Source: Stenopsyche tienmushanensis
Taxonomy: Eukaryota > Arthropoda > Insecta > Trichoptera > Stenopsychidae
DNA: 64,000 bases
Assembly (NCBI GenBank): GCA_008973525.1
Contig: WACJ01000128.1
Span: forward strand, 806,001 to 870,000
Direction of reading: 5' to 3'
Positions 42,301-64,000 of this stretch are shown here, one piece after another (positions within the stretch are counted from its first letter, which is position 1; every line of letters begins with the position of its first letter). The position numbers and the translations under genes were made by a program. The notes below the pieces were generated by a model. The model ran no database searches. It was not told the origin of the DNA and saw only the letters and a program-made list of their open reading frames with translations.

Positions 42301-44024
42301 ATAAATGATTAATAAGTGCTGCTATCGGTGATTTGACAGCCACAATTGAGTAAAATTGGCAATACTTTGTTTGGTAAGCACTGTAAATCTTGGTTTTGAA
42401 GATAAACAAATTGTGTCACGGAAAGAAATATTAATTGAGGATGTATACCGATTTTCCTGTAACGAATTATATTTAGTTAAAGATGATTATGATATCAATT
42501 AAATATAATAATCTCACTTTGAATCCATTATCTACCCCATCGCAAAACTCCTGGGTATCAGATGTGTTTACATAGAGTTCTACTGATAATCCGATATTTT
42601 CTCCAACTGTATATACTCTTCTTGGATAAGGGGTATATCCTTGGTTGGGTGCAATTGTATATCCCGTACCTGGTGACCATACTTTAATACTGTTATTTTT
42701 TAGGATTTTGTCCCTTATTGAGTTGGAAAGATGTGTTCTGATAAAAACAATACATTTTCAAATCTCAATCCATTGCATTAACACGACAAATTATTGACGA
42801 TCATAAAAGATAAATATTATTGACTTACATCATGTTAAATCCAAAGCATACGCCATTATTGGTCATAAAAGACTGAAAATATTCGGAGCAGCAATCGAAA
42901 GTTTCAAACCTTTTTTCATTGGAAGTTACCCAATTGCAGCTTTTTATTACATCAGAACATTTCGGAGTACTCTGAATATCCAAACATTTCGTCATTAATA
43001 ATACATATATATCAATTTTGTGAGTTTAAAATTTAAACTTTTAAAGTTAACCTTCTCTATAAAATCCATAATCTTTCCATCTTCGTCTGGACTAGTCCCA
43101 TCCGGCAAAGAATATTTACCTGGAAGCATCTTTCCACAAACCAGTGACGCAGCAAAAAGAATAGTTCTGCATTGAAAATAAAAATTGATAAACTGTTAGT
43201 CAAAAATGTATCATTTCATGCATTAGCGGATTGGATGATAATCATTCGTGGAAGCGTTCAATCATGAGACAAATCTGATAGGTTATAGAAATACCTATCA
43301 GTTTCCTGGGACAGATTTATATACGACATCTTGACTGTATTTTCGGGACATATGACGATGCTAGGGAATGGTATGTCATAAATTGGAGTGTAGTCGTCGT
43401 CCATCACAAGGGTAAATGGAACTGATGTCCACTTCGTCCACAAGGTATGGATGATGGCGAAGCAGATAGCGAGACTGATACTAATGATGGCGAGCCATAT
43501 GCATTTTTCCCCGCGCCTTTTCGAAGCATCCGTCACATACCTGCATCAAAAACAATCTAAATATATTTGCGCAAAAATATTAATTTAGCAATGTAATATC
43601 GATTCTTACTTAAAACCGTGCAGGGTACCGTTTTCACACAGATGCTTGCCTCCCATTTTGATCAATTCAAAATAAGTCATACGCTCTATATCAGAGCAAT
43701 ATTTGGACTTTTCTTCTGGCATTTTCTGTGTTTTAACTTTGAAAATATTTTGATGGCTTTCATTATTTTTTTGTAAAGCAAAGTCATTTTCAATGATCTT
43801 CGATTGATATCCGACGTAAATGGTATTAGGGCGAAGATTCCAGATTTTCGATCTATGGTTTTGATAATCCAAATTTTCGTTGATGGTATTAGACAGCAAT
43901 CTTCTATTGAATATTGCACTCCTCGGGCCAACCTTTTTAATTGTTTTGCTTTACAAATAAAATTTTAAATTAGAATCGTTTTACTGAATTTCGAAAATTA
44001 AATTTATACTAACCGCTTAAACAT
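39366..44024 (-). CDS. pickpocket-like DEG/ENaC sodium channel subunit A, 600 aa, 10 coding exons
   Basis: Amiloride-sensitive-type cation channel subunit of the plasma membrane. Coding exons are 44024-44014, 43948-43610, 43540-43295, 43166-43052, 42971-42829, 42737-42518, 40447-40180, 39979-39769, 39684-39593 and 39523-39366. The lengths sum to 1803 bases with agreeing phases and one stop. TM1 lies near residues 126-148 (WLAIISISLAICFAIIHTLW). The conserved post-TM1 block YDIPFPSIVIC follows, then a long cysteine-rich extracellular domain with YTQYNCILECELKYMIAICK and CECYPGCTEL. TM2 near the C-terminus is GVLSLFLGFSIMSLIEFFYY, with selectivity filter GFS. Family length (about 450-600) fits. 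A mariner lies in the intron at 40,448-42,517. Which Drosophila ppk it matches best cannot be told from the sequence alone. Confidence 0.93.
40877..42145 (-). mobile_element. mariner copy 2 (TTAGG ends), full length but decayed
   Basis: A 1269-bp element flanked by TA duplications (40,875-40,876 and 42,146-42,147). The ends are TTAGGGTGCTCCATAAGTTT and the inverse of TTAGGTTGTCCCATAAGTTT. The minus-strand transposase starts near 41,960 (MENQRKHLRHVMLHCFKKGF). It shows VREIANKLEIPRTSAHNHL and VVFHHDNARPHVSLL, followed by VLPHPP. Several stops and frameshifts are present, and the last catalytic region reads APF instead of APSD. It sits in intron 6 of channel gene A. Confidence 0.92.
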
Positions 44025-46110
44025 GACAGTATACGTTATTTAATCTTGAATATATCCAAGCAATTGAATGACGGGAAGGTGATTGGATCAGAGAGTACTA
44101 ATCAATTAATAGTTGATTCATTGTTTGATAATTTATCGTTGATTACAGCTTTGTCTTTGTGTCAACATTACAATTTTCTACTTATGTAAATTAAAGATCT
44201 TATCGTTGATTCGACATATGTTCTTTGATTGAATGGACTAATAGATAAAATGAATATACAACCATATCTAGGACTACCAACTCCCAATTTGTTCGAAACA
44301 TTCTGAACTGAATTGGAAATCTCTATACATGATTTTAAACAAGTTATAATAAAAATTTATATATATTGAATGAGTTGAATTATTGACTATTTATTGCTTA
44401 TTAAAACCGTATTTGCAAATGTTTGGGCTCAAATATAGATTGGATGAAAAAGTATATTTACCCTAATATTTTTGTTCTGTAGAATAAAATAAGGAGTGAA
44501 TTCATAAAATAGATTATAATCAAGCACACAATATACGAATTTGAGTAATTTCACCTCAACTTCATAATATTTTTTCAAGCTGATCGTATCCTTCAGCAAT
44601 GATACAAAATTGTTGCCTCACTGAAGGAAATTCAATTATATTTACATCCATAATGAATAATTAATATGTAAAGTATATTTTGAATTACATTAGATTTGAT
44701 TATCATTCCAAGTTCATTCATAAAATAACACAAAATTCTCATCATACACATAGCAAAAAATTTGTGTTAATATCATTAATATATACTCAAACACTATTTT
44801 AAATAGAATAATAAAATCATCATTGATCATTCAAATTGATATAAGTAATAACTTTAAATCACACATACTTAAATACAGACCTTTTCCAAAAGAAAAAAAC
44901 GGATAGCTACCAAAATTAGCATAATTTTAGGTATATTAAGGTGACAGGAAACATTGAAAGCTTAAAAATTTGCAAATAATTTATTAAAAGTAATAAAAAT
45001 GTAGTCTAATCTATAAAATAATTAACATCGCCCTTTGCTACCGTTCAATTAATAATACAGTATATAAAAAGTAACTTAGTCTATTCTTCAAAAAATATAT
45101 CTAGATGATATTTTACCTCATTAAAATGACTATATTTTTACTTCATAAAGGGTGTTCTTAAGATCTAAATACATAGTAATTAGAAGTTGTGATATCCGGT
45201 TAATAAGATAAATGGGATAGAATTTCTAAACCAAGATCCATTATTTTTTTCTAATGTTAATTTTGCTGATCTTATTGAAGATTATATTCTTTCACAAACA
45301 ATTTTCTACGGCTCTGATTGTCTAATCAAATTCATGCAACTCTAAATAAATGACTATGATATTCTAGCATACACAAAGAAGAACCTTTTTTATTATTAAC
45401 GACGATTTAGAGATAAGAATAGGTTCTTCGTCTGAAGAAATCCATTTATTTTTTTGAATTTTTCCTTGCGTTATTCCTGATCTAGTGCAGTTAGCAAAAA
45501 TTCATATGGATGACAATATTATTCACGTAATAAGTTTCCTATAAAAAAGGAATAAAATGTTCTAAATTATGCTAGAAAAAATATTTTTAATACAAACGCG
45601 TAAATCAAAAACTAAAAAAACCCTTTCTTTTTTCTGGATCGAAAATTGGAATACAACCGATATACATTTTTTAGCTGAACCAGAACGGAAAACCGTAATG
45701 GAAAAAATATGGTTCGAAACCCTGATTATAATTACAATATAGAAATAGCTTTCAATACAAAAGTTCTCGTATAAAAAAAGCAAATATTTCTTCATTTTAA
45801 GGCATCACATAATTTTATAAACGTGCATATGATTAAGTTTGAAGCCAAATATAATTTCTGCAGCCAAAACATAAGTTCGATCATTTTAAAACGTTCTCGA
45901 AACTATTTAATATTTGAGAAAAATTTTAAACATTAAATCATTTAGAGTCATCTATGATGTTCGAGGAAAAATATTAAGCTCGCTTTCACAGTACCATAGG
46001 AACTTTTGAGGATCGGCTCGAACATTGGGGGATGATTTACGTCACCGACAGATGGCAAAAATACATTTTTAAAATGAAAATTCAACATTTTAAATCAGCA
46101 ATAATTAATA
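44025..46110. other. intergenic region between the two channel genes
   Basis: A/T-rich. It must hold the promoter of channel gene A next to 44,024. I see no convincing reading frame, RNA gene or repeat. Confidence 0.5.
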
Positions 46111-46116
46111 TTTATT
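46111..46116 (-). terminator. polyadenylation signal AATAAA of channel gene B
   Basis: AATAAA on the minus strand, about 33 bases after the stop codon. Confidence 0.6.
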
Positions 46117-46148
46117 TATAAACTATAAATTAATACATTTTTGTTATA

Positions 46149-49100
46149 TTATGTCTTTGGTGAAATCTTATTTACTTTGTTTTTATATCTTTTCCATATT
46201 ATGATCGACCACAGAAATATCGGCAAAAATGCTATGTAATATATTAACTCGATCAAACTCATGATACTAAATCCCAAAAATAAGCTGAGAGCCCCTCCTA
46301 CGGATCCTGTAAAATAAACAAAACGAATATAATAACGCAATTGTGGTATCAAGTAGACTTTAATATTATTTCGAACGTGATTTAATTGAAATCTGGGTAT
46401 TTGATAGCTTATTCAGATAATCCCTTTATTTACAATTTACAATATCACATCCCCCATATTTAACCCCGTTCAGGTGATAGAGTAGACACCATTTCTATTT
46501 TGTTCGAAAAAAGACTCCAATGATCACGAATCAGGATTTGCGGGACAGTCTACGTGCCTTTATGGAGAGCGAGAAGATTATCATTTGTACAGTATGGATA
46601 ACGATGCATATTAAATATCGAATGAATCCACGTCATACAACTGAAAAGATTAATTTATCATAATTTCAATGTAGATACCTACAAAATCCATGGTATCGTA
46701 CAATAAACGACGGTGGTATCCCAAGAAAAGCGAGTCCCTGAAATGAATATCAAATCTCGCAACTTCGTTCCTGCAAATAAACAAATCCGTTTTTATTATG
46801 TTCTATTCTGCATGCTATTCACAAGTGAATTAATTTTGATCGGAACTCGTTTATGTTAAAATTTGCCCACGATGGTTTTGCATGATCGTCAGATTTGAAA
46901 TAATCGGAATAGAATATGTCCAAGCTGTATCTCAAATCGGTGCAACTTGGATAACAATCGCACCAAAAAATTCCATCATCCAATATTTGATCATCCACGG
47001 TAAAAGATGTTCCCGATTTTGTTAAATAATAATTTTCAATCATCCGAATGTTCACTTTAACTACAAAACATACACGAAAAGCATTTATAAATCGTTAATT
47101 TTTCGCAAATAAACGCGCATAATATGTCATCAATAAAATCAAATGTGACCGTATGGTTACATCGATTGAAAAGCGCCTTTTCTTATATTATTCATTTTTT
47201 AAGACATGCATATCAATACATTTGGGTAACTGTGGCTTGATAAATGACAAGATAATTTCATCACATTCAAATACCTTTGATCCTATTGTAACAAATATAA
47301 TCGAGTTCGGTCTTACAAATTTGAACAAATGGCGTAATGTCTGAAAATGATCAATAATAATTAAAATAAGCATATGATTGTAATAAATTGTTCAAAAATA
47401 AAATACATGTACCTTTATAATAAAACGGAATGCAATTGCATTTTTCTATTGAATATCTCAATTTGCAATCCAATATGCAATTGTATTGTGTGTAAAATTT
47501 GAAATATTTCAACAACTTTTCATTATCGAAGTAGCATTTTCTGACTTTGGGCAACAGGTACCTCATTGATTCATCAGTGCCGACTTTTTGTGGTGATACC
47601 GAAAATGTTGTCTGTTTTTCCATTGGTATTGAAATGAAACTTCGTTTGATGGCACTGTCCATTGGAGAGCTGATGAGCACCTTAAATTATATTTAAATAT
47701 ATTTGAATTGGATATATAAAAATTGATTTATGAACGAAGTTCTACCTTAAATCCATAAATAGCCCCATCGCAAAATAGCTGCGCTTCGCTCGTATTGAGA
47801 TAGAGCTCAACGCTTAGTCCGTAATTATCCCCGACGGAAAACACCCTCCTTGGATACGGGGGCGTATTTTCAAATATTGGAAAATCATATCCTTTTCCAT
47901 AAATCCAGGATGTACTTTGTCCATTTCTTTTGATGGCATCAAGGTTTATTCTTTTAAGGTCCGCTCTAAACAATAATATCGAGCAACACTATAATATATT
48001 AAATCTACAATATTGCATACATATTTGCTTGCATGCAGAAAAAAGTATTTTAAAAAGATTGAGTCAAACTATATAAATAAATATTTGCTTCAATTTTCTG
48101 CCTTGTTTTATCGATTAGGCATTTTTTGTATAGTTCATGTTGTTTGAATTCTTAGGTGATATTTATTGTGAGCCTATTTTTCACGAACTATTCTGTCATT
48201 TCATTGCTAACAAAACATTGTCTTGTTAAATATGCATAATAAAAAATAAATAGATCTTTTATATTATGATAGTTTAAACACAGAAATACTCAAATGCAAA
48301 TATACTCAAAGATTAGTTAGCCAAACAAGTTCTCAATGATCATAACAGTGTGTTTTTGCCTTCTATATAGTTTTGATAACATTGAACTGAAAATTATGAT
48401 TTTAATATTACATCGGTCTTCATCATAGTCCAGCATTGTTGCAAAAAAAGACTCCATTTCTTGGCCAAGAGATAGAACAGCATATCTTAACAATTTATAA
48501 AGATTTTTCCAGGGATAAATTACTTGAAAGATGCTTGGGTGGCCACAATTGACATTTAACTCGACGGTTTGGTGACTGCTTCAAAGCACCTGCATTCTGG
48601 TGTAAAAATCATTGAAATATCAACATACATTGTTGTTTGGATATTTAAGAACAACTATAGCTTCATTTTGAAGATGATGAATACATTAAATATAATTATT
48701 GGCACCTACTATAAAGTGTTTACTGAAAACACCGATGAAATGCGGGTAGCGAGGCAGAACCGTAAGAATTTTTCTGCACAAAAGCAGCTCACATAGCCCG
48801 AAAATAACAGCTCCTCGAAGATAATTAACTTTTTGAGAAAGCTGAAGATCTATTATATGCAATTAAAATCATTGATTAATCAGTAAGTCGCTAAAATTTA
48901 TAGTTTTATCGTATTGAAACTTTAAACGAGATTATCTCGAAACTACATTTTTAAAATGTTCGCCAGTTGTAGCTTAAAAAGTTGTTGATCGATCTGCCTG
49001 AAATTTTGGGATATTTCTCACTATAATATTATGTGGTCAACAAAGCTAAAGTTTTAAGGTTTTCACGTAAATAAATTAATTTTAGGGTAAAAATGATCAA

Positions 49101-51081
49101 GAAAATGGTAAAAATATGAAAGTTTAACTGAAAAGCCTACTATTTTTTTTAATTTTATACTTTTTTAATTTTTTAATTTTATAGCTTGGTAAACTGTCTA
49201 CGCATAATAAAAATCAAAAAATATTTCCATTTTTGGTTTTAGTTCAACAGGAAACCTTCAACAAGTGGCGAGCCGTTTGATATCACGAGAAATGGTGCCT
49301 AATAGAAAACCTTATAATTCCGCCATTTTGTTTTTTTTTTATTAAAATAATAAAATAAATAAGCACTTTAAGGTTGTAGTAAAATAATGTCAAAAATTTA
49401 AAATGATACGATTATTTTATCACCATTAAAAATAATGATGAAAAATGACTCATTTTCGAGCGTCTAAAGGGATTGCCCTCATTCAGATAGCATTATTGTT
49501 TTTAAGTGTCGGAATTCTGAGTCTCTATTGAGTGTTTTTTAAATATGATAGACAGAGAGATGTTTAGATAACCATATTTTCTTATGAAATGATTCAATTA
49601 GAATTATATAACACTTACACCATATTAAATCCGAAGCAAATGCCATTATCTGTGAGGAACGGACGAAAAAATTCAGTGCAGCAATCAAATGATTCTTCTA
49701 TCATGTCAGTCATTGACATCCATCTACATTTTCTTATGATATCCGAACAACCTGGAAATCCCTGATGTATAAAAAAAGAATGATATAAATATATTTTTGG
49801 ACATTCAAAGTTTCCATTGCTTTTCCGTTACTGTAATCAACATTTCGATTTGGTTCTGACTATTGCATACCAATGAGGGCAAAGCTTTGGTTATAGAATA
49901 GTTTTAAAGTCAAAAAGCGTCTTGAAAAAGATGTTTCGAGCTTTGGGAAAACATCAAAGTCCGATACGTTCATATCGATGTTCACTAAAGTAAAAGCGAA
50001 AACAACCCCCGCATACCTATTTGTAAAGCATGCGTCATAGCCGATCCCTCGTGGAAACACACAGAGGGTTGAATTTGTCAAACATGAAAAAACGAATATA
50101 CCGTACCTTAAAATAACGTGGACTTTACTTACCACTGTGAAAAAGTCAATTATTTTCTTGTCTTCCTTCGAACTGACGCCCTCCGGCAGGGTATATATTT
50201 TCGGTGGAGTCTGATTGCATTTCAGCGCAGCGGCCAACATTAAAGTTCTGGAATAAGCAATAAAAAACTAATTTGACACGCTCTATCTTATATCTATAGT
50301 AACAATCGCTAAAAATACCTATCTTTTTCATTCTCGAAATTGATATAAGATTTCTTGGCAGAGTGTGCCAGACATATAACGACAGCTGGAAAAGGTATAT
50401 CATATATCGGAGTATAGTCATCGTCCATTACCAGACTGAATGGTACTGAAATCCATTTTAACCACATTGTATGAATGTTGATGGTACATATCGTAATGCT
50501 AATGATGATAAAAGCAGCCCAAATTATTCTCTCTAGTATAGATCTAGATTTATCTGTAATATATCTGAAATTTAAAAAAATGATTGATATACCTGTGATC
50601 GAATTTTGAAAAAGAAACATTCTAGAAATTATTCTGAAGTATGTGATACAAAGAAAATGTATTGTTTGTTGTATAACTTCTTTCCATACAGTAAAAAAAT
50701 ACATATTTGAATCAAAAGCATATAAAATCTCTTACTTGAGACCATGAAGAGTTCCTTTGTCGCAAAATTGTTTAGCACCACTTTCAATTAATCCCAAAAA
50801 AGGTTGACCGTCAGTTTTTTTTAAATAATTGTTCTTCGATTTAATTAGTTTCTTCGGTTTGAAATTCACGTTCAATTTTAGTTCACGATCGTCCTTTATC
50901 AATGTTGATTGATACGTTTTATATATTGCCCTTGGATCTAAGATTTGTCCATTTTCCACGGGGATTTTGAAAACCGTATATTTTTTCTTGGTTTTCATTT
51001 TATTTGCATCCCTTAAATATATTGCCATAGATAAATATACAAATAAAGATCATTAAAATAAAGAATAAATTCTCACCCCAT
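46149..51081 (-). CDS. pickpocket-like DEG/ENaC sodium channel subunit B, 578 aa, 10 coding exons
   Basis: Tandem paralogue of channel A. Coding exons are 51081-51077, 51011-50736, 50564-50319, 50247-50133, 49761-49619, 47965-47746, 47680-47413, 47060-46847, 46770-46679 and 46306-46149; they total 1737 bases with one stop. TM1 is WAAFIIISITICTINIHTMW, followed by YDIPFPAVVIC. The extracellular domain has SFDCCTEFFRPFL and YTQYNCILDCKLRYSIEKCN. TM2 is ALSLFLGFSIMSLIELIYYI, with filter GFS. Exons 3-7, 9 and 10 have exactly the lengths of those in A. The 5-nt first coding exon (ATGGG) is inferred from A's 11-nt one. A start at 51,028 without it is the alternative. The donor of exon 8 (GA|GTTCCG) is unusually weak. 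Confidence 0.9.
48420..49110 (+). mobile_element. decayed transposon-associated coding fragment
   Basis: This lies in the 1.65-kb intron 5 of channel gene B. Plus-strand pieces KDFSRDKLLERCLGGHN, VTASKHLHSGVKIIEIST and KMMNTLNIIIGTYYK, then DEMRVARQNRKNFSAQKQ, occur in order but in shifted frames with stops. They resemble the C-terminal part of uncharacterised proteins that are multi-copy in many insect genomes and are probably carried by DNA transposons. That resemblance is from memory, not a search. The borders are approximate. Confidence 0.45.
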
Positions 51082-51556
51082 CCGTTTAATAACCTTTAGG
51101 AGAATAAACGAGTTGTGAATATTATACATTTATGATGGAAAAATTCATATACTATTTTTTAAATTGCTAATTGATAAAAACTTATAAACTGTGACTGATG
51201 ACCATGATATCAGATCTACAATCATACTTATGAATATTAAAGATCTTATCTTACTATGAGTGCTTTCATGTGATACAATTCTCACAACGTATTGATTGTG
51301 AAATACCGATAATGCCATATGACAAGGGATGAAGTAGGTAGCCATGTAACTACACAACTTTATGATTTTTTGTCTTGGCTTTAAATAAAGTTTTCATCCA
51401 TCTTAATTGGACGATGGACCCAAATTGGTTCTAAGAATAGATTCTGAAGATAAATTGGATATAAACCTGTATTTTACCTGATTTTCGGAATGCATTTACT
51501 CGAGACTTGCGTCATTCCTTTCCAATAACAATTTCCCATGCCGTAATTTTCATCCC
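51082..51556. promoter_or_regulatory. shared divergent promoter region of channel B and CAPA-like gene 1
   Basis: Only 475 bp separate the start codon of channel B (minus) from the TATA box of CAPA-like gene 1 (plus). The region is A/T-rich with no reading frame. It must contain the channel B promoter and may be read in both directions. Confidence 0.45.
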
Positions 51557-51593
51557 TATAAAATAGGCTCAGTATTTTACTTTGGGCACAGTT
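51557..51593 (+). promoter_or_regulatory. core promoter of CAPA-like gene 1 (TATA and CAGT initiator)
   Basis: TATAAAAT is at 51,557-51,564. A CAGT initiator has its A at 51,590, 33 bases downstream of the first T of the TATA box, inside GCACAGTTCTCATC. The same arrangement and spacing occur at the two paralogues. The predicted 5' UTR is 64 bases. Confidence 0.7.
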
Positions 51594-51653
51594 CTCATCG
51601 AGCATTTATCTTCAAAACATCCTTTATCCTTGCAAAGAATATTTCTTCAAAAA

Positions 51654-52232
51654 ATGTCCTCGTTCAAAGTAAATTTGCACTCAATAATAATGCTTGTACT
51701 CAATATATTTGTATTAATATTGACGACTCAAAATCTATTCGTTGCAGGTAAGTCAAGTCCTTTAATTATAAAAATATTTTATTTCAAAGCAAATTATGTA
51801 GTATGTAAATATTACAGGTGATTCATATTGGGCAACTTATTGTGATACCCATTGGACTGATTATAAATGTCAGCCTTTCCCTAATACAAGACCGGGTAGA
51901 TCTCAAACTGGAAGAACATGGCAAATCAATCGCGGAGGATATGATGGTCTGATAAATGTCTATTTCAATTTATTTTTTTTAAATGTAATATATATAAATT
52001 TATCGAAAAAAAAAATATTGTAGGTCTTTTTCCTTTACCACGAATTGGACGCTCAATACACGAAGTTCATAAAGAGGAGGTTCAAAATGATGGCTCTAAT
52101 GATGTTTGGTTGCAAAATACCAATTTTTTGAAACAAAGGTTTGATGATTCCATAAATAAAGCTGACCCATGGACCATATTAGCTTTGAAATATTCAAAAA
52201 CGACCTCAAGACCAATGGAAAAATCTTTTTAA
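51654..52232 (+). CDS. CAPA-like neuropeptide precursor 1, 143 aa, 3 exons; one intact PLPRI-amide peptide
   Basis: Secreted prohormone. Exons 51654-51747, 51818-51946 and 52024-52232 join with phase-1 junctions as in the Capa gene. Residues 1-31 are a signal peptide (hydrophobic IIMLVLNIFVLILTT). Exon 2 carries a degenerate first peptide site, PFPNTRPGRSQTGR, where Capa has PFPRVGRSQIGR. It also has a pair of cysteines, CDTHWTDYKC. Exon 3 begins with the only canonical site, GLFPLPRIGRS. Cleavage after the upstream NR would give GGYDGLFPLPRI-amide. The pyrokinin position reads SNDVWLQNTNF instead of SGMWFGPRL. The alignable tail DDSINKADPW shows common descent with Capa. An earlier in-frame ATG at 51,582 lies before the predicted transcription start. 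The CAPA family acts through G-protein-coupled receptors on Malpighian tubules and viscera; this paralogue's role is unknown. Confidence 0.85.
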
Positions 52233-52639
52233 ATCATGATAATCAAAATGGAATGCCCTGAAGAGACTATGTCATGACTTCTACTACTATTTAAGTGTCT
52301 GTAAATATAAAATAATATAATATGAAATGTGTATAGAAATTGGATAAATTATATTGTGCAATTTAATGCAATCTTTTACTTTCATTCGTATTTTTTCAAC
52401 ATTGAAAATATTCCCAAATCCCAATAACCAGACCTACTTGTTAGAGAACTCGAACTTTAAGAGCTGGTATAATAAACCTCCGATATATTTTTACATAATA
52501 ATTAGTGTTCTTCATATTTTGTCCCAAAGCTTTACTTAAATTATATCTCAATCAATCAATTAGTATCATGAGTTTTAGATGAATAAATGATTCATCATAA
52601 TTTAGGATTTTTTTAATATAAAATACGTGACTTTTGTAA

Positions 52640-53600
52640 AAAGTTCGGCATTAGGGGTAGGACCAGGGGTTGAACACCACTAAGGCCACAAAAGCCATAA
52701 ATTAAATTTATGGTGAAGTTTCATCATTACAACATGCCGATTTTGGTATTCAAAATTTAAACCGGGTAACCGATGTTTGAAAGACGGCCCTAAAACTGGA
52801 AAACCCTTAAATTTTGATGACGATATGTTTGAGAGCCACAATAGAAACAGATCCTCGATTAAGTATCGAAGAACTATTGTAGAGATGCATTCATCGTACT
52901 CGACAGCTCAAGAACATTTAAAACGCATCGGGAAGACGAATTGAATGCCGCACGAACTGTCCGTAGATAACAAAGAAAAGCGACGAAACACGTGCAAAGT
53001 TTTGTTATCAAGACAAAAAGTTTCCTTTTTGCACTGAATTGTGACTTGGGATGAAAAATGGATTGTTTATGACAATATAAGTCATAAATGTCAATGTCTT
53101 TCGCTGAGGCAAAAACCATTTCTGACTCCAAAGCCTGGATTGATGACCGGCAATATTATTTTGTGCGTTTGGTGGGCTATTCAAGGAATTATTCATAATG
53201 AATTTATGAAACCTGGCGAAATAATAACTGTAGATATGTATTGTCAGCAATTGGAAAGGGTGAATAAAAATTGAAAGCCAAACGTCATATATTAATCAGG
53301 AACAATTTTGTAATTTTGCAACACGACAATGCAATGAAGAAAACGTCTGAAAAATCAGGGAATTAAAATGGGAAGAACTTCCACACCCTCCATATTCACC
53401 AGACCTGGCTCCGACGGATTATCATATTTTTCGATCTTTGATACATTCAATGAAAAAGGATAAATGCTCTCCAAACACAAGTAAAGTCAAAAATAATATT
53501 TGTACATATTTCGACTCAAAATCAGAAGAATTTTTCAAAAGGGGAATTGAAAAAATCGAAAATCTGTGGAAAACAGTAGATCGTAGACAGTAGGCGTCTT
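52640..53600 (+). mobile_element. decayed mariner transposase relic
   Basis: Plus-strand pieces in mariner order: KTGKPLNFDDD, STAQEHLKRIGKTN, PHELSVDNKEKRRNTCKVLL, VTWDEKWIVYDN, CVWWAIQGIIHNEFMKPGE and LQHDNA. A PYSPDLAPTDYHIFRSL-like block and GIEKIENLWKTVDRRQ follow. It is broken by stops and shifts. It belongs to a different lineage from the TTAGG-ended mariners. I could not define the terminal repeats. It lies between the convergent CAPA-like genes 1 and 2. Confidence 0.8.
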
Positions 53601-53877
53601 CTCACTTTAGGCGCCTCAAAAATAGGCTACTTTCACGATTTTTTTTCGAGGATTTTCGCTAAAAATTATGAGATAAAATGGATCATATGTAATAAACACA
53701 TCTTTCAAGTAAATGAAAAAAAAAAAAATATTTTTTTTTGAACAATTATTATAATAAAACAGTAGCATCGAAAAACCCGTGTAGAAATGTTATGTTCGTG
53801 GCTTGTTGATGGTATCTCCGAGATGGGTTATTTGAAACAAAAAAATAAAACAGTTTTAGATTCAGTATATCAGTGTC

Positions 53878-54030
53878 TATAGCGCATATCATCAGATTTT
53901 TGATATTTGCGAAAATAAGAAAAAGGCGCACGTTTTACAAAAAAGTAAAAAACGCGATTTTTTTGCAGTTTTTTGTAAAAAAAAATTACTTAAAATCAAA
54001 ATTTCAAAAATCTGATAATATGCGCTATAA
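53878..54030. repeat. imperfect inverted repeat, 27-base arms
   Basis: ATAGCGCATATCATCAGATT, continuing TTTGATA, at 53,878-53,904 is repeated in inverse orientation near 54,003-54,028 with few mismatches. The DNA between is A/T-rich. With the following stretch to about 54,500 it looks like a decayed transposon end. Confidence 0.5.
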
Positions 54031-54789
54031 CCATAACTATGAAGAATATGTCATTCAAATTTCATGACAATCGGCCAGATAGTTTCCGAAATTTCATCAA
54101 CAAGCCACCGAAAAATCTTGTTTTGAGATAAACGCGTTTAAAATTTTGATTGCAGAAAAATTTCCCAGACACAGCTGTTGAAACACTCGTTGTTATTTTG
54201 GGTATTTCCTCCGAAGATCTTCATAAATCGGTTTCAAAACCTCGTGAATATTCTCAACTAGAGCAGAAGGATGTTTAAAAGTTTCTATCTGATTGTTTTT
54301 CACCACTTTCTTGTACTTGCACCATGAGTCTGAACAATACGTATGCAGCCGGGTGCTCTCAGGTAGTCACCTAACGGTCGCCCAAAAATGTAGTTAGACT
54401 CGTCCGATCTTTATGAAATTTCGATATATTATTTTTGAAGATATGTACTTTCAAAATTTAAAATAAAATAAAAATCGATTTTTTTAAATTTGTAAAGTGA
54501 GAAGACGCCTTAAGTCAAGTTTTTGTCCAAAATCATACAAATGACTGACGATCCAAATTTATAAATAAATATCTTTCTCTTATAAAATTTAATTATCGAA
54601 GCACTCATTTGCTGAGAAACGTTGACATTATTGACAATGTCTTGAAAATTTCATCAAACTTATTAAATTATCGTCGTTTAGGGTCTCGCTATTTATAGGG
54701 TACTTACAATATCCTTTGAATTTTTCCTCCGACTAGGCTCAATAGAGAACAAGTTATTATAATCAAAGTCGAAAGTAATGCATCATATT

Positions 54790-54795
54790 TTTATT
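54790..54795 (-). terminator. polyadenylation signal AATAAA of CAPA-like gene 2
   Basis: AATAAA on the minus strand, about 170 bases after the stop codon. Confidence 0.5.
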
Positions 54796-54963
54796 AAATT
54801 AAAATAAATATTTTGATATAGCATGTTCATAAATATTAGATTTTTTACAGAATATACAAAAACAAAATGAAAAAGTACAAATAAAGTATAATTAATAATA
54901 GATTTTGTAAGAGATTTTTGCGCGTGATCAGTTCGTTGTCGATTAATCGTTAAATTGAAAAAT

Positions 54964-55649
54964 TCAATCAGATCTATCTGATGATCTTCCGGCTGGTTTT
55001 GTGACATCGAATGCGTCTATTCCTTGCTTGGAAAATTTGCTTGATCCAAACCACAAATCTGCAACGCCGTCTCCAATATATCTATTGCCTCCATCTTGGT
55101 CAAATATCCCTTGTCCCATTTGTGGGAAAGGTATATAAATTTGAGGTTCTATAACAAAATAAAAATATATTTTATAACACTCTAATCGCTATAATAATAT
55201 TTGATTAAGCTAAATGTTACCCTCATAATTTTCAGATGCTGTGAGCCAAGTTCTTCCAGGTTGAGCTCGACCAATTCTTGGCAGAGGATATAAGCTACTT
55301 TGTTGACGCCAATCTCCTATTTAAAAAAAAAAACATACAGAACCAACATATCGGATGTAAAGTCGCAATACAATCGTTCGTTTCCAAAAAAAAAGAGTTT
55401 TTCAATGCAATATGTTATGCGGATCGAACCAAACCGATAGCATCAGTAACACGAGACAGGAGTAATATAAATTGTGGATTTTATTTGTATTTGAATTGTA
55501 CTATGACTTTGTATGAAATCGATAAGTATTTTTTATGAAACGCCATTTTTACCTCCCCCAAGTACGCTGGGAGTTGCTAATGACAATATAAGGACGACAT
55601 TCAACACTGTCATTCTAATTGAATGCTTATTTACAGCAGAAAGAGACAT
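54964..55649 (-). CDS. CAPA-like neuropeptide precursor 2, 125 aa, 3 exons; one intact PLPRI-amide peptide
   Basis: Secreted prohormone, convergent with precursor 1. Exons 55649-55553, 55316-55221 and 55148-54964 join in phase 1 to 378 bases. Signal peptide: MSLSAVNKHSIRMTVLN, then VVLILSLATPSVLG, closely similar to Capa. Exon 2 has SLYPLPRIGRAQPGRTW. Cleavage after DWR would give QQSSLYPLPRI-amide, possibly N-terminally pyroglutamylated. In exon 3 the second site reads IPFPQMGQG where Capa has IPFPRVGRA, so both the essential arginine and the GR processing signal are gone. The pyrokinin reads DLWFGSSKFSK instead of GMWFGPRLGRFSK. Spacing and GDG and GID landmarks remain. The intron before Capa exon 4 is missing, and the exon-4-like DNA is read in another frame, ending at TGA 54,966. 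Confidence 0.87.
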
Positions 55650-55691
55650 TTTTTTCAACTAGGATGCTACAAGGACTAAAGTCAGCTGAAT

Positions 55692-55727
55692 ACTGTACTG
55701 TTGGGTAAATCTTGTATCCATTTTATA
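55692..55727 (-). promoter_or_regulatory. core promoter of CAPA-like gene 2 (TATA and CAGT initiator)
   Basis: TGCTATAAAATGGA on the minus strand is shared with the Capa promoter; the TATA box is 55,727-55,720. CAGT has its A at 55,694, exactly 33 bases from the first T of the TATA box. The predicted 5' UTR is 45 bases. Confidence 0.7.
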
Positions 55728-56157
55728 GCAGCGATGTTTTCACCATTTTAAGTCGTAATTAGATGCGAATGACGTAAGTCTGAGGTAAATCGGGGTTCAT
55801 ATCCTGTAATCAACGATTTATGATCAATTTGCATCGTGATTTTAAGGGCGATTTAGAATCATCCAATTAAGCTCGGTGTAAAATGTATTTAGATTTATAT
55901 ATTAGAATTAAATTAAATATGTTTCGCTAGTCTGAGTAATTGGGTGAATGTAACATTAACACCTTATTGCCGGGAATTTAATTTCCCCCTTTGCTTCCCT
56001 CTACAATTTATTGATTCTATTCGTTCGAAAATTTTCCTTCGCTTAATTAAGACTGAAAAGCGTTCCACAATAATTTCAAAATAATTGCTATAATTAACAT
56101 GAATGATTAAAAAAGGTTTTTTATACTATGTATAGTATAATTATTTTCCATAACTTA
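55728..56157. other. upstream region of CAPA-like gene 2
   Basis: A/T-rich DNA between the promoter of gene 2 and the Helitron. No reading frame or repeat was recognised. Confidence 0.5.
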
Positions 56158-58444
56158 TCTAATATATAAAAATAAGTTGCGTTTCCCGTCTAATGCTCGG
56201 GCGAAATGGGTTGATATGCGCGTTCATCGGATTGAGACAAAACTTGGTCCACTTATTGCCAAGGGATCAGGGGGTGACATAGGCATAGTACAATTAACTT
56301 ATAGTAGATTTTTAATTCAAAACTTAATGTGTGAAAGTTGTTGATTCTGACGTGTTTGAGATTACGCGTTGCTAAGGCTATAGGTATATAGTACCTACAA
56401 GTTGCAGTAGGAGGCGTCGTGTCGTCGTGTCGTCGTCACATACAACACATACGTCAAACGTCAATGTCATTTGCAGGTTATCCATCGGCGTGAGTCAATT
56501 ATATCCAAATTATTTATCGCAAGCACTTTTAAAATGCTTCATTTCATTCATCGCTTATTCACGTACGTAACAACCGAAAAAGTACGTTTGAGTGCTATCC
56601 GATAAAAAATCAGACGACCAACGTGCAACGAGAATCGAAAGTACATGTTGATTTGAATATTGCTGCATTTCAATATGATATTCATTACGATTACAGATTG
56701 CATCCCAGTGTAAAATGGATAAAGGTTAAATCCTGTTAACGAGGGGCAAATTTATTGGTAAATTGAAAACGCCTTCATTTCGACACAATGAAAACAAACA
56801 AACCTAACCTAACCAGATTTGAATTTAAATTTAATTTAAAAAATAAAAAACAAGAATCAAATGAATAATTATTTTATTTAATAACAATATGTTGACGATT
56901 GATTTGATTTGATCAGAGCTTGATTTTCAATCAAGCTCTGATCGAAATCGAAGACATTTGCTTAACCATCAACATCAAAGAATTCATTCAACAAGAATTC
57001 GTTCTGCACTTGAACAGCAGTACAATGCTAATGATTTGGATGCATTTGTCGAAGCAAACGAACAAATTTTGCTTGCGGAACAAAAATTGACCTACGATAC
57101 AATTACAAATGATCTGTTCTTCCTTGATGCGCCTGGCGGTACTGGAAAAACGTATCTCATCACTTTACTATTGGCTCACATTCGATCTCAAAATAGAATT
57201 GCTTTAGCTCTTGCTTCATTAGGTATTGCGGCAACATTATTAGATGGTGGACGAACAGCGCATTCGGCATTCAAATTGCCATTAGATATGCATTTATTGG
57301 AAGCTCTGACATGTAACATTCCTAAAGTTTCTGACATAGCTAAAGTTTTGAAAATTTGCAAGGGGATTATCTGGGACGAATGCAATGCTTGATCGAACTC
57401 TTAAAGACTTACGATCAAATGCAAAACCGTTTGGTGGCGCTCTAATTTTATTATGTGGCGACTTTCGACAACCTCTTCCAGTGATGCTTTCATCGACACC
57501 AGCTGATGCTTGCCTCAAAGCATCGCATCTTTGGAGAGACGTGCGAAAACTGACATTAAAGACAAATATGCGGGTACATTTGTAGCGTGATGCGTCGGCA
57601 GCCACATTTTTAAAACGACTATTGAACATTGGTGAAGGAAAAGTGCATGTTGATGCTACCAAGTTTATTTCATTTCCATCGAACTTTTGCGTTGTTGTGC
57701 CATCCATCGATTTACTCATTCAGAAAGTTTTTCCGCAGATTTTTAGTAATTATAAAAATCATTATTGGCTTTGCGAACATGCTATTTTGGCAGCAGAAAA
57801 CACCGACGTCAATACAATCAACCACACAATACAATAACAAATTGCAAATGATTTTGTTACCTACAAATCGATTGATAGCGCCATGAATGCAGACCAAGTT
57901 ACTAACTATCCAATCGAGTTTTTAAATTCGTCAGATCTTCCTGATGTGCCACCTTACAAATTGGAACAAGACTCACTATGAAGAAATTGATGCCGAATAT
58001 CATCGAAACAACTATATATTCTTAATGGAAAGTCGAAAGGAGAAGATGTGCTCATTCCCACCGACGTGCAATTTGATAAGAGACGACTGCAGCTCCCCGT
58101 TGGACTTGCATTCTCAATGACCATCAACAAGGCACTTCAAGTGTGCGGAAGAATCTATAAAATCCACGTTGGACAGCAGAGAAATTTATTTGTATTTGTT
58201 AAAGACGGAAAAGCCAAAACTATTCTCTACCCTAAAGCACTTAGCAGAACAATTAAGTAAGCAAAATGTATGCTTTTAATATTTTTTTCTTTATATATCA
58301 TTCAATATCAATAAATGTATTAATTGTCGGAAAAAATATCATTATTTATATCATTGCTAATTAAACAAGATAACTCTTTCAAATTTCAAATGGTATTTTT
58401 AGAACTATTTCTTCTGTGGCAGCAACGCGCCGGGTACCAGCTAG
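56158..58444 (+). mobile_element. Helitron copy 2, 2287 bp, internally deleted, helicase remnant
   Basis: It begins A|TCTAATATATAAAAATAAG and ends GGTACCAGCTAG|T. It is nearly the same sequence and length as copy 1. Helicase pieces: 56,958-57,392 with Walker A APGGTGKTYL and Walker B IIWDEC; 57,385-57,585 with [11 protein letters not shown]; and 58,048-58,260 with LPVGLAFSMTINKALQVCG and LFVFVKDGKAKTILYPKAL. The same deletion after WDEC as in copy 1 shifts the frame, and the Rep domain is absent. The 33-bp hairpin is at 56,911-56,943. It separates CAPA-like gene 2 from Capa. Confidence 0.92.
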
Positions 58445-58607
58445 TTAAGAATATAAAATGCATGATAAATGAATATTTAATTGGTGAATACTGAATCTTC
58501 ACTTTTTTCCCTGCTTAAGATAAATATAAATCAGAACTGTCTGATTTAGGAGGATGATATTAAAAACCAATTTAAATCATTTATTATATACCAATCCTAT
58601 TTTATTT

Positions 58608-59447
58608 CGATATACTGTTCGCAAAATAGCTAACAAGTTAGAAATTTCACGAACATCCGTCTATAATCATCTGACAAAATTGGGATACATCAATCGTTCG
58701 GATGTGTGTCTTCTTCATGAACTGACTGACTCAAATAAACTTCAGCGTATTTCAACATGCAATCTTCATCTCCAATGACATAATAGCCAACCTTTTTTGA
58801 AAAGACTTGCCACTGGAGATGAAAATTGGATACTCTATGAGAATATCCAACGTAAACAGTCTTGGACCAAGGGAAACTTTAATTGTAGCTAAACCTGGCC
58901 TACATTCAAAAAAAGTTTTGCTATGCATTTGGTGGGACTGGAAGGGGGTACTTTATTATGAATTACTTCAGCAAGGTGAAACAATCAATTCAACAAAATA
59001 TTGTTTCCAACTAAAGGATGCAATTACCAGAAAACGGCCAGAATTAACGAACAGACGAGGCGTTGTTTTTCATCACGATAACGCCAGGCCTCATGTGTCT
59101 TTGCTCGTCAGAAATAAATTATTATCATTTGATTGGGATGTTTTACCTAATCCTCCATACTCTCCGGATATTGCCCCTTCAGATTATTATTTATTTCTTT
59201 CATTGAAAAATTATTTACGTGATAATTTTTTTAGTTCAAAAAATGATATGAAAATGCACCTTGATCAATATTTTGCCAACAAACCTGGGAAACTTTGGCA
59301 AGAAAGCATTATGAGGCTTCCGGAGAGATTGAGAAAGGTAAAAGAAAAGAATGGATCATATATTATTCAATAAATTTTAATGTAATACAAATTATTGTTT
59401 ATTTTTTTCTTAATATGAAAACGAAAGAAACTTATGGGACACCCTAA
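58608..59447 (+). mobile_element. mariner copy 3 (TTAGG ends), 5'-truncated, longest transposase frame
   Basis: The right end is AAACTTATGGGACACCCTAA followed by TA (59,448-59,449). Similarity to copy 2 starts at about 58,608 (TATACTGTTCGCAAAATAGC), so the left end with its repeat and the start of the gene are missing. The 188-residue frame at 58,807-59,373 keeps WWDWKGVLYYELLQQGE, the second catalytic Asp in VVFHHDNARPH and the third in IAPSDYYLF. The last two are separated by 34 residues, the mariner D34D spacing. The first Asp lies in TGDENW, just upstream in a frame broken from the rest. Confidence 0.9.
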
Positions 59448-60962
59448 TATTTTTACTCGTATTAAATTTTTATTTTATAATTAGTATAATATTTGGGTTG
59501 ATATCAATCAAATATATCTTATTGACAAATATAATTTTAAAAAATGCACAGATTTACTGTCAAATACGCTGATTCCTTTTAATTAGTGATCACATATGTA
59601 TATTTTTAATGAAATTTCTATAGCTATAATGTAATAGAATATTTTATTTCTTGCCGAATTTTTTCATATTATAGTAACACCATAACTGCAAAATTGTATT
59701 TTTTAACGGACAATATAACTATAACAAAAAAAATCGTGTATATAAAAATTAATCAAATAAAAATACATCCTCCAATTTAGAATTAATAGAGAGCTATTGA
59801 ATGACACCTTTTTAAAAAATTGTAGTATTTCAATCAAATTTTCATTTTAAATTTTCATCATAATTTTATGGCTTTGAAACCACCTAAATTATTGAATGGA
59901 ATCGATTTTCCAAACATGAATGAACCAAAATATCAATAAGACTTAAATACTTAAATTGTAACACTAGATTTTGTAGGAGATGTTAACATTGATAATAATT
60001 TTATCTTAGAAGCTCAAAATATATGATTTAATCATTATATGTATAAACTTACGTCAAATAATGATATAAGCGTCACATTGAATTTTAAAAGCCAAAACAC
60101 GTTTGTTCAACAAAGTTTAAAAAACATTCATATAGAAAACGAATGGATAGAGTTGAGCACAAATTATTAAATGTATTGGATAGTTAAATTATAATGGGTT
60201 CAATCTACTGTAGATTATGCGTTATTATCATATAATAAGGCTAACTACGCCATTGGATAAAACCAGATTATGATAGAAAAAAATATTTAATTAAAATAAT
60301 AAAGTATTAATGTTTTCGATCGATCATCTCGGTCCAAATTTAGCTGTATTTTCTGGCTCTGATTTAAGTAAATACTGAAATGATTAATAAAATTCCCCGA
60401 CAAAAATAATTTTAGCCGAACTCGACCGCATGTGGAAGCCAATGCGATATTTATTTCATATAACCAAAAATAGTTTATTTCATATGAAGACTGCCTACGA
60501 GTTTATGAGTTTCGAGAAATATTATGAGTATATTTTTATTGCTTTTCAAAAACAATCTAATATTCGGTTAAAGTTATAGAGAAAGATGCTAATGAATAGT
60601 AAGGTCACTGAAAATCAATATGCTCAAAGGACCGAAGAAAATACTATTTGTATGTTGATGATAACACAATTAATTCCTTTCGACCTATATCAAACTACGA
60701 ATCTCGACAGCCTCTCAAAAAATATTTTTAATCTTTTAATAGAAATGTTATCTCATTTAATGCGAATTAAGGGATGATTTTCCATTTTGTAGAATATCAA
60801 ATTTCTGTTTTGATCCTTGCGGTGGTATGGCTTTAATTAAAGGAAACCAAAGACAAATTGCATTATATTCTTTATTTATTTCATACCAGGAACTATATAT
60901 TTTTCAATAGACTATGTATTTACAAATAATAAAATATTTAATGACGTTTACATTTGTATGAT
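59448..60962. other. A/T-rich intergenic region
   Basis: Very A/T-rich DNA between the mariner and the 3' end of Capa. The open frame at 60,586-60,777 resembles nothing known to me and has no splice or promoter support. No gene is called. Confidence 0.5.
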
Positions 60963-60968
60963 TTTATT
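60963..60968 (-). terminator. candidate polyadenylation signal AATAAA of Capa
   Basis: AATAAA on the minus strand, about 170 bases past the stop codon. Confidence 0.45.
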
Positions 60969-61136
60969 ATAAATGCACACATTGTAATATTATTTACATT
61001 GAGAAAATATTAAGGGCGATTTTTCTTCTCGACTGGAAAAATCACCGCTGTATCATTGTTGAAATAATCAAATTAAAAACATAATAACGACAATTTTGAA
61101 GGGATCTTCTCAGATTAATTTGTTCTCGTATTAAGC

Positions 61137-62506
61137 TCATTGTGTTTCTCTTGCTTGTCGGACGGTATCTTGTTCGGGCTGTTCAATGAGATCAATCTGA
61201 TCTTCTTCAGGCTGATCTTCTTGTTCTCTTCCCAGATGGGGTGTGAAGTCGGGGGATGCATTTATATCTGAAATAAATTTAATTTGCATAAACAATTCTC
61301 TGATTTGAAGCAATTGATTGGAGAGGATATTTACCCTTGAATGCGAACATCGCCCATGGATCTCTATCGTCGAATCTATCGATGCTCTTTTTTGAAAATC
61401 TTCCGAGACGAGGTCCAAACCACATTCCAGATGGACCATCGCCATTGTATCTCCTGGCTCCATGTTGTTCATACATTGCTCGTCCGACGCGTGGAAATGG
61501 TATCAAGCCAGCTCTTTTAATTTCATTATGCAGCTCTATTTTTAAACGAAAATTATTACTATACAATGATCAACATGATTTAATTAATACAAAATTAACA
61601 ATGTAATACCGGCATAATTTTCAGGGGTGATGAGCCACGATCTTCCTATTTGGGATCTACCTACTCTTGGAAATGGATACATCGTCATCGAGCCAGCACG
61701 TCTTGTTTTCGGATCTTCTTGCATTTCTGATTAATTTTTTTCAACAAATTTTAATAGCAATTAAATCGATTTTGTATTCTAGGATTTAATTTATTAACAA
61801 ATTATTTAGCCATTAGATCAAAAGCTTTTTATAAAAAAAAATATTTGAACAACCTTTGAATATTTTTAATCGCCAAAAAGTGTTGATTTAACGTCGCGAG
61901 TATATCGTACGTTAAATCAATCAATTAGATTCGAGGGTGAAATTCGATCAAGTGGAAAAGCTAGTTTTCACAAATTTTCATCGTTGAATTTACACCTACC
62001 CCATTACAAAATATTCTTATTTATAAAAAATTGAATATATTTTCTTGGAAAAGCTTTTCAAATCATTATTAATGAAGCGTTGTATTATATTTTTGCGTAA
62101 AATTAATGTGTATACACAGATTTATTGAATTTATGTGCTAAATTCGAAAAAGGCGATTCCTTTTAAAGAATATAACGATATTATTAAGCCCTTCTTCGAT
62201 ATACATTTCACAGCCCTGGGGTGAAATTAATCTATATGCAAAATTGTATAAAAATAATTTAGCACGGGATACAATCAAGCCTGTGTAAAGAGCAAAAATA
62301 GAATTAACGAATCATGTTTCAATTGGTTATTTAAACGGAATTATTTTAAATATGGAACAAAATATTTATAGAAAAATATAGTATTATTATAGCAAAAAAA
62401 TAGTCTTACCTGCTCCAAAAATATAGGGCGTCACCAATGACAGTATTAAAACGACGTTTATAACAATCATCGTCGCCGAATACTTATTTACAGACTTGAA
62501 AGACAT
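61137..62506 (-). CDS. Capa: CAPA neuropeptide precursor, 181 aa, 4 exons
   Basis: Prohormone for the CAPA peptides that control diuresis and visceral muscle through G-protein-coupled receptors. Exons 62506-62410, 61726-61610, 61535-61335 and 61267-61137 (97, 117, 201, 131 bases) join in phase 1 to 546 bases with one stop. The signal peptide is residues 1-32 (VINVVLILSLVTP core). Three amidated peptides have Gly-Arg processing sites: AGSMTMYPFPRV (after RR), AGLIPFPRV (after KR) and YNGDGPSGMWFGPRL (after RR). Two periviscerokinins followed by a WFGPRL pyrokinin is the standard insect Capa layout. Exon 4 encodes an acidic tail (EDQPEEDQIDLIEQPEQD) without peptides. Two paralogues lie to the left. 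The promoter is described separately. Confidence 0.96.
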
Positions 62507-62601
62507 TAAACTTATATGAAATAAATCTAAACTGATAATATTCGGAGTTCGTTCTTCCAACTTCGTATCGAAGATGTATCAAGGAGAAACGTCTGATGAG
62601 A

Positions 62602-62637
62602 ACTGTGCTGTAAGGAAAATGTGTGGTCCATTTTATA
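62602..62637 (-). promoter_or_regulatory. core promoter of Capa (TATA and CAGT initiator)
   Basis: TATAAAAT at 62,637-62,630 (minus). CAGT has its A at 62,604, 33 bases downstream, within GCACAGTTCTCATC, a 14-base string identical to the one at CAPA-like gene 1. The predicted 5' UTR is 98 bases. Confidence 0.72.
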
Positions 62638-62878
62638 GCAGCGCAGCCTCCAACACAATAAAATTATTACTAAGGGCGCGTGACGCAAGATAACGTGAAA
62701 AATAACGTAAATGCACTACGATCTTGGGATTTAATGATGATTTATAACGGATTTATTTACTCAGACGTTTGATCTATCTTTAGCATTTTTTAAATTTTAT
62801 TCTGAGATTCTTATAAATTGAAATCAATTGTAAATACATACATTTTTTATATATATATATCGTATCATAACATAATTA
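62638..62878. other. upstream flank of Capa
   Basis: A short A/T-rich stretch before the third Helitron, with a (TA)n run near 62,850-62,862. The Helitron inserted 242 bp upstream of the Capa TATA box, so distal control elements may have been displaced. Confidence 0.45.
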
Positions 62879-64000
62879 TCTAATATATAAAAATAAGTTG
62901 CGTTTCCCGTCTAATGCTCGGGCGAAATGGGTTGATATGCGCGTTCATCGGATTGAGACAAAACTTGGTCCACTTATTGCCAAGGGATCAGGGGGTGACA
63001 TAGGCATAGTACAATTAACTTACAGTAGATTTTTAATTCAAAACTTAATGTGTGAAAGTTGTTGATTCTGACGTGTTTGAGATTATGCGTTGCTAAGGCT
63101 ATAGGTATATAGTACCTACAAGTTGCAGTAGGAGGCGTCGTGTCGTCGTCACATACAACACATACGTCAAACGTCAATGTCATTTGCAGGTTATCCATCG
63201 GCGTGAGTCAATTATATCCAAATTATTTATCGCAAGCACTTTTAAAATGCTTCATTTCATTCATCGCTTATTCACGTACGTAACAACCGAAAAAGTACGT
63301 TTGAGTGCTATCCGATAAAAAATCAGACGACCAACGTGCAACGAGAATCGAAAGTACATGTTGATTTGAATATTGCTGCATTTCAATATGATATTCATTA
63401 CGATTACAGTTTGCATCCCAGTGTAAAATGGATAAAGGTTAAATCCTGTTAACGAGGGGCAAATTTATTGGTAAATTGAAAACGCCTTCATTTCGACACA
63501 ATGAAAACAAACAAACCTAACCTAACCAGATTTGAATTTAAATTTAATTTAAAAAATAAAAAACAAGAATCAAATGAATAATTATTTTATTTAATAACAA
63601 TATGTTGACGATTGATTTGATTTGATCAGAGCTTGATTTTCAATCAAGCTCTGATCGAAATCGAAGACATTTGCTTAACCATCAACATCAAAGAATTCAT
63701 TCAACAAGAATTCGTTCTGCACTTGAACAGCAGTACAATGCTAATGATTTGGATGCATTTGTCGAAGCAAACGAACAACTTTTGCTTGCGGAACAAAAAT
63801 TGACCTACGATACAATTACAAATGATCTGTTCTTCCTTGATGCGCCTGGCGGTACTGGAAAAACGTATCTCATCACTTTACTATTGGCTCACATTCGATC
63901 TCAAAATAGAATTGCTTTAGCTCTTGCTTCATTAGGTATTGCGGCAACATTATTAGATGGTGGACGAACAGCGCATTCGGCATTCAAATTGCCATTAGAT
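62879..64000 (+). mobile_element. Helitron copy 3, 5' part (runs off the right edge)
   Basis: It starts A|TCTAATATATAAAAATAAG. It then matches copies 1 and 2 almost base for base through the 33-bp hairpin (63,624-63,656) and into the helicase Walker A region (APGGTGKTYL). It differs from copy 2 in the number of GTGTCGTC units near 63,140 and by isolated bases (NEQLLL for NEQILL). The remainder lies outside the window. Confidence 0.9.

Follow-up and report, generated by a model that had tools for sequence, protein, structure and literature searches.

Introduction

In beetles the capa gene consists of a signal exon, an exon for a periviscerokinin (PVK), an exon for a PVK and the tryptopyrokinin (tPK), and an acidic last exon, all in phase 1 (PMC6585902). 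The preliminary description of the DNA examined in this study had stated that insects usually have one capa gene, which holds as a rule, with at least one exception, since Rhodnius prolixus has two such genes, CAPA-alpha and CAPA-beta (PMC7591069, PMC6250713). Here we describe three capa-like precursor genes, g1, g2 and g3, located within 51.5-62.7 kb of a 64 kb stretch of DNA (GC content 32%) from the caddisfly Stenopsyche tienmushanensis (GenBank assembly GCA_008973525.1, contig WACJ01000128.1, positions 806,001 to 870,000), referred to below as the window.

The g3 gene is like the single-copy insect capa genes in its four-exon, all-phase-1 layout and its three typical peptides (PMC6585902), whereas the tPK, exon 4 and one of the two PVKs are missing from g1 and g2, which have a PLPRI end in place of FPR(V/L/I). 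Rhodnius likewise departs from the one-gene rule (PMC7591069, PMC6250713), but there are two genes rather than three and both are described as carrying full peptide sets with no peptide loss (PMC6250713). Dedicated tPK genes in termites and locusts (PMC4237046, PMC9853942) are comparable in that a family member has been reshaped toward mainly one peptide class; however, these genes specialise in several tPK copies, whereas g1 and g2 keep single PVKs and drop the tPK. Amplification of the PVK exon in beetles is similar in that phase-1 exons permit the peptide content to vary, but beetles duplicate this exon inside one gene (PMC6585902), whereas here whole genes and their promoters were duplicated.

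Paralogous prohormones that differ in the peptides they carry are also known from the duplicated POMC genes, the lamprey POM and POC being an example (PMC3622036). The POMC system differs in being from vertebrates and an unrelated family, whereas the window still holds an intact copy for all three peptides, and the surviving peptides of the other copies converge on one end. Duplicated POMC genes of teleosts are reportedly the subject of work by de Souza et al. from 2005. Split peptide content (POMC) and multiple capa genes (Rhodnius) are already known. In the open-access literature found, parts of which were available, there was no report of three capa genes, of capa genes with one PVK or of PLPRI ends, and Rhodnius was the only insect reported to have more than one capa gene.

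Three capa-like genes with different peptide content

Exons were placed base by base. Each gene encodes a signal peptide and has spacers that can be aligned with those of the others, and all seven introns (two in g1, two in g2 and three in g3) are GT-AG and in phase 1; exon mapping, alignment and tblastn thereby bore out the matching signal peptides, splice sites and spacers given in the preliminary description. The g1 gene (51.65-52.23 kb) is on the plus strand, while g2 (55.65-54.96 kb) and g3 (62.5-61.1 kb) are on the minus strand; g2 and g3 are arranged head to tail, and g1 and g2 tail to tail. The bounds within which the cluster was originally described, 51557 and 62637, coincide with TATA boxes, the former with that of g1 and the latter with that of g3. 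There are three coding exons in g1 and in g2 and four in g3, encoding proteins of 143, 125 and 181 amino acids, respectively.

The g3 gene is an ordinary capa gene with two PVKs, one tPK and an acidic tail. Its translated exons contain the three standard peptides with their processing sites (AGSMTMYPFPRV-G-R, AGLIPFPRV-G-R and YNGDGPSGMWFGPRL-G-R), as had been described for the gene at 61.1-62.5 kb. Both PVKs have the FPRV/I-G-R type of end, and the WFGPRL-G-R end of the tPK (YNGDGPSGMWFGPRLGR) lies downstream of them. The exon order is signal; PVK; PVK, tPK and a hydrophobic stretch; and acidic tail. The Pfam periviscerokinin family PF08259 was detected in g3 at 20.2 bits (cut-off 15 bits), and a protein search gave 162 matches at E <= 1e-3 (best 4e-19), as befits a capa homologue; the best match was capa from the ground beetle Carabus violaceus (4e-19), and the caddisfly Arctopsyche was alike in score (5e-19). 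Homologue details were taken from the best 120 of the 162 matches, among which identity reached no more than 51%. A pattern scan of genome contigs and viral contigs, for which g3 was the sole query, gave 42 and 8 matches, respectively, none of which was a relative.

Both g1 and g2 have kept the signal exon, the intron positions and the spacer GR(S/A)QxGR(S/T)W seen in g3, and both have lost the tPK and the acidic tail, coding exon 4 being gone. Alignment to g3 confirmed that g2 retains only the first PVK site (SLYPLPRI-G-R) and g1 only the second. The loss of the pyrokinin from both was equally clear, since the tPK slots read VWLQNTN in g1 and LWFGSSK in g2, where no PRLGR follows. The donor of g3 exon 3 has no equivalent at the corresponding place in g1, where the frame continues to a TAA stop codon.

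When searched by tblastn against the window, exons 2 and 3 of g1 and of g2 matched g3 with E values of 3e-9 and 3e-15, respectively. The signal exons, with pairwise amino acid identities of 42-61%, matched at 8e-9 between g2 and g3, while that of g1 was weak on its own (0.06 to g3 and 0.035 to g2). With their signal exons, phase-1 introns and spacers homologous to those of g3, and with neither a PVK ending in FPRV/I nor a tPK, g1 and g2 are capa paralogues rather than standard capa genes. When all six frames of the window were scanned for P(x)PR[VILM]G[RK] or [FLM]xPR[VILM]G[RK], there were five sites, all within the three genes, and neither tblastn nor this motif scan revealed any convincing remnant of an additional capa gene in the window.

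We conclude that g1 and g2 are, on balance, probably specialised one-peptide extra copies of capa, which would provide a PLPRIamide PVK from capa-type cells. The preliminary description had proposed that the duplicates split or specialise an ancestral multi-peptide hormone. Three paralogues with reciprocal loss in g1 and g2 were indeed found, and specialisation is favoured by the promoter module, the PLPRI end and the rejection of neutrality for g1, but the idea of a split was not supported by the peptide content of g3. Classical subfunctionalisation, in which the three genes share out the ancestral peptide set, would account for the reciprocal losses; however, no copy would then be expected to carry the whole set, and in g3 the complete set is encoded, its processing sites intact. 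Every ancestral peptide is thus available from g3 and none relies on g1 or g2; in terms of peptide content these genes do not divide the ancestral job, which makes subfunctionalisation very unlikely.

A promoter module common to the three genes

The window contains three instances of the sequence CTTRCGTCA...TATAAAATRG, one in front of each gene, with lengths of 61, 61 and 62 bp for g1, g2 and g3, respectively (Table 1). When the window was resampled 200 times with a first-order Markov model, a control that differs from an exact shuffle, the full module never appeared. Between genes, 8-9 of the 9 positions were identical at the CTTRCGTCA end, which we take to be CRE-like, and 9-10 of 10 at the TATA end, compared with 14-22 of the 42 bp in between. 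The alignment of the three starts extends through the sequence ACAGT, approximately 20 bp past the module. Such conservation would be expected if all three promoters were still used and read by the same factors.

Upstream of g1 and g2 there are also stretches in common (51382-51517, plus strand, and 55767-55891, minus strand), which matched at 79% over 34 bp (E 0.001) and 83% over 24 bp (E 0.014); the same blast search of the window gave no g3 counterpart. These stretches hint that g1 and g2 may be the closer pair, or that sequence may have been exchanged between them.

The surviving peptides have the same unusual end

Both of the peptides that retain their processing sites, in what are here called the live slots, end in PLPRIamide instead of PFPRVamide, even though they occupy different slots; the dead slots of g1 and g2 both still read PFP. 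Among 265 PRxG(R/K) sites in the homologues, leucine precedes PR in only one, from a tick protein, whereas phenylalanine is found in 233; these sites come from the best 120 of the 162 matches, picked by likeness to g3, and exclude those with glycine before PR (tPK-type).

The live-site codons are TTA/CGA/ATT/GGA in g1 and CTG/AGA/ATT/GGT in g2. Since these codons differ and both dead slots read PFP, the change to PLPRI looks parallel, and the simplest account of the sequences is that each survivor changed to this end independently. Alternatively, gene conversion between g1 exon 3 and g2 exon 2 may have made the ends alike. A 28-column blastn match between the two sites (79%, E 0.59), the ATT isoleucine codon and the CCT codon at the first proline common to both, and the last arginine codon of g2, which is of the CGN kind, are all consistent with conversion. 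However, the leucine codons differ (TTA and CTG), the first arginine and glycine codons track those of the slot-matched g3 exon (CGC and GGA for g1 exon 3; AGA and GGT for g2 exon 2), and the flanking spacers align to different g3 exons, so that we give conversion very little credence.

The common end is a hint of some shared requirement, for instance that of a receptor. In Tribolium, LTPSLRVamide was as good as MVSFPRIamide, and beetle receptors tolerate varied ends (PMC6585902); because of this tolerance, PLPRIamide ligands are plausible. It is possible, although we suggest it only tentatively, that in this insect PLPRIamide is distinguished from PFPRVamide by a receptor, or a copy of one, of its own, which would constitute a private hormone channel derived from the capa system.

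Selection and decay

Codon analyses were carried out on a MAFFT protein alignment trimmed after the alignable part. The NG86 dN/dS ratios were 0.24 (g1-g3), 0.23 (g2-g3) and 0.61 (g1-g2), at synonymous distances of 2.6, 1.6 and 1.0, respectively. A three-branch codon model gave omega values of 0.17 for g1, on a branch that is saturated, 0.54 for g2 and 0.10 for g3 (lnL -1281.67). Neutrality (omega=1) was rejected for g1 (lnL -1286.75; 2 delta lnL ~10.2) and for g1 and g2 jointly (lnL -1290.84; 2 delta lnL ~18.3). Neutral frames, with dN/dS near 1, had been named in the preliminary description as an outcome that would refute its proposal; this outcome was rejected for g1 but not for g2 alone.

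Neutral decay was also simulated from a g3-like ancestor (3000 runs, at fitted nominal neutral distances of 0.19 and 0.48 per site; substitutions are thinned in this procedure, so that the real divergence is below the nominal value). With no indels the frame remained open in 4.6% of runs for g2 and 0.13% for g1, and with 0.1 indel per substitution in 0.2% and 0%, respectively. From these sequence comparisons g1 looks maintained, and g2 was probably maintained for most of its history, although recent decay of g2 may have occurred.

Relationships of the three genes

Two trees were built, both of which included the three genes: one of 62 rows, with 59 of the 120 listed proteins, and one of 19 rows, with 16 proteins. 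In the 62-row tree g2 and g3 were grouped (99/85, starred) and adjoined protein P0027 (98/57). In the 19-row tree g1 and g2 were grouped (85/82, not starred) and all three genes were united at 50/0; the alternative grouping of g2 with g3 was not rejected (p-AU 0.396), and the P0027 neighbourhood was not recovered. The branch leading to g1 was very long.

Observations weighing against specialised copies

A number of results count against the reading of g1 and g2 as functional, specialised copies of capa. Protein searches with g1 and g2 found no relative at E <= 1e-3, giving only 4 and 9 word-sharing candidates, and Pfam found nothing in either. The three genes were not one clade in the 62-row tree, where two changes would be needed to unite them, and the branching order differed between the two trees. 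The promoter module was defined after the three starts had been aligned, and its halves alone occur in 4 and 5 places. With regard to the peptides, the last arginine codon of the g2 live site is CGA, unlike the AGA of g3 exon 2, and the predicted N-terminal cleavage before both live peptides is at single arginines and uncertain. Between g1 and g2 the dN/dS ratio was 1.00 for exon 2 and 0.89 for exon 3, omega=1 was not rejected for g2 (lnL -1281.75 compared to -1281.67; 2 delta lnL ~0.2), and a single omega of 0.16 fitted equally well (lnL -1282.62; 2 delta lnL ~1.9). With the neutral distance lowered to 0.05 per site, and with no indels, the simulated g2 frame was open in 41% of runs, and with a distance of 0.1 in 18%. 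Finally, the last part of g2 exon 3 contains an out-of-frame remnant of exon 4 (blastn 84.8% over 33 bp, 54963-54995, E 1.4e-5), which is a sign of 3'-end decay in this gene.

Together with the loss of most peptide sites and of exon 4 from both genes, the out-of-frame remnant, the failure to reject omega=1 for g2 and the lack of matches in the protein search are what would be seen if g1 and g2 were decaying pseudogenes and the remaining peptide a leftover. We consider this unlikely, though it deserves some weight. Frames, splice sites and module are intact in both genes at synonymous distances of 1.0-2.6, neutrality was rejected for g1, open frames were rare in the neutral simulation at the fitted distances, and parallel PLPRI ends are unexpected under decay. 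The lack of database relatives says nothing about transcription of g1 and g2, because even for g3 no listed match exceeded the identity ceiling given above.

In exon 2 of g1 (51818-51890, plus strand) there are two cysteines eight residues apart, followed by Pro-Gly-Arg, with no counterpart in g2 or g3; these residues could form a possible looped amidated peptide. It is conceivable that g1 is turning into a different hormone gene, one that would encode a disulfide-looped prolinamide peptide besides GLFPLPRI-amide, and the reading of exon 2 as SYWATYCDTHWTDYKCQPFPNTRPGR would fit. However, two cysteines in ~28 residues may arise by chance, and the protein search with g1 detected nothing at the threshold used, making this a highly improbable alternative.

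Genomic surroundings

The features of the three genes are listed in Table 1. Pfam was run on 16 other open reading frames of the window, identifying four ASC channels and two transposon proteins (PIF1 and Transposase_1); the remaining ten had nothing above the curated cut-off. A row of exons of amiloride-sensitive sodium channel (ASC) type, presumably pickpocket-like, extends from 40172 to 50731 on the minus strand, with Pfam ASC in four of the five open reading frames tested there. It stops ~0.8 kb short of the g1 promoter module and is oriented away from this module.

Similar pieces of a PIF1-helicase element, which we take to be Helitron-like, were found at 20439-20918, 56913-57392 and 63600-64000, one of them in the interval that separates g2 from g3 and another immediately upstream of g3; the 56.9 kb copy was identified by Pfam and the others by eye. 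These pieces may have helped the rearrangement of the capa genes. Partly broken mariner-type transposase fragments are located at 12350-12970, 40949-41858 and 58801-59373 (Pfam Transposase_1 for the 58.8 kb copy, the others by eye), and a mariner-like stretch, also read by eye, lies at 52.9-53.6 kb between g1 and g2.

Table 1. Features of the three capa-like genes (positions are those of the window).
Feature	Positions	Strand	Evidence
g1 promoter module, CTTGCGTCA...TATAAAATAG	51506..51566	plus	pattern scan
g1 exon 1, signal peptide	51654..51747	plus	amino acid identity 42% to g3 and 55% to g2 signal exon
g1 exon 2, dead PVK-1 slot PFPNTRPGR; spacer GRSQTGRTW retained; two cysteines upstream	51818..51946	plus	
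g1 exon 3, live PVK-2 slot GLFPLPRI-G-R; dead tPK slot VWLQNTN; ADPWTILALK retained	52024..52232	plus	
g2 promoter module, CTTACGTCA...TATAAAATGG	55718..55778	minus	pattern scan
g2 exon 1, signal peptide	55553..55649	minus	exon mapping; 61% amino acid identity to g3
g2 exon 2, live PVK-1 slot QQSSLYPLPRI-G-R	55221..55316	minus	translation and exon mapping
g2 exon 3, dead PVK-2 slot IPFPQMGQ and dead tPK slot LWFGSSK; last exon fused out of frame	54964..55148	minus	
g2 exon-4 remnant, other frame (QNQPEDHQIDLIE; g3 has EDQPEEDQIDLIE)	54963..55001	minus	tblastn E 0.073
g3 promoter module, CTTGCGTCA...TATAAAATGG	62628..62689	minus	pattern scan
g3 exon 1, signal peptide	62410..62506	minus	exon mapping
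g3 exon 2, PVK-1 AGSMTMYPFPRV-amide	61610..61726	minus	translation and exon mapping
g3 exon 3, PVK-2 AGLIPFPRV-amide and tPK YNGDGPSGMWFGPRL-amide	61335..61535	minus	translation, homologues, Pfam and exon mapping
g3 exon 4, acidic tail FTPHLGREQEDQPEEDQ	61137..61267	minus	translation and exon mapping

Proposed origin and biological significance

The specialised-copy reading would be explained by the following series of events. A capa gene appears to have been copied twice within ~11 kb, with g3 representing the original type, which would be expected to serve the usual hormonal function in renal tubules and visceral muscle. The g1 and g2 copies would then have retained the promoter module, the signal peptide, splicing and the processing spacers, while the amidation or cleavage site was lost for every peptide but PVK-2 in g1 and PVK-1 in g2, and both surviving peptides would have shifted in parallel to the PLPRIamide end. 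As judged from the DNA, capa-type neurosecretory cells would transcribe all three genes through the common CRE-like/TATA promoter; processing of the g3 precursor would yield the normal mix, and g1 and g2 would add a PLPRIamide PVK alone, without the tPK. The supply of PVK would thereby be uncoupled from that of the tPK and of the PFPRV peptides, and the target may perhaps be a receptor, or a state of a receptor, with a preference for PLPRI.

Insect prohormones often release several peptides together, and how their separate regulation comes about is an open question. In this one locus an intact three-peptide gene lies beside two copies that have each been pared to a different single peptide, with the same unusual end. 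If g1 and g2 are expressed, the cluster would represent a natural experiment in which it could be asked whether duplication and loss can uncouple the peptides of one prohormone, and whether a receptor follows.

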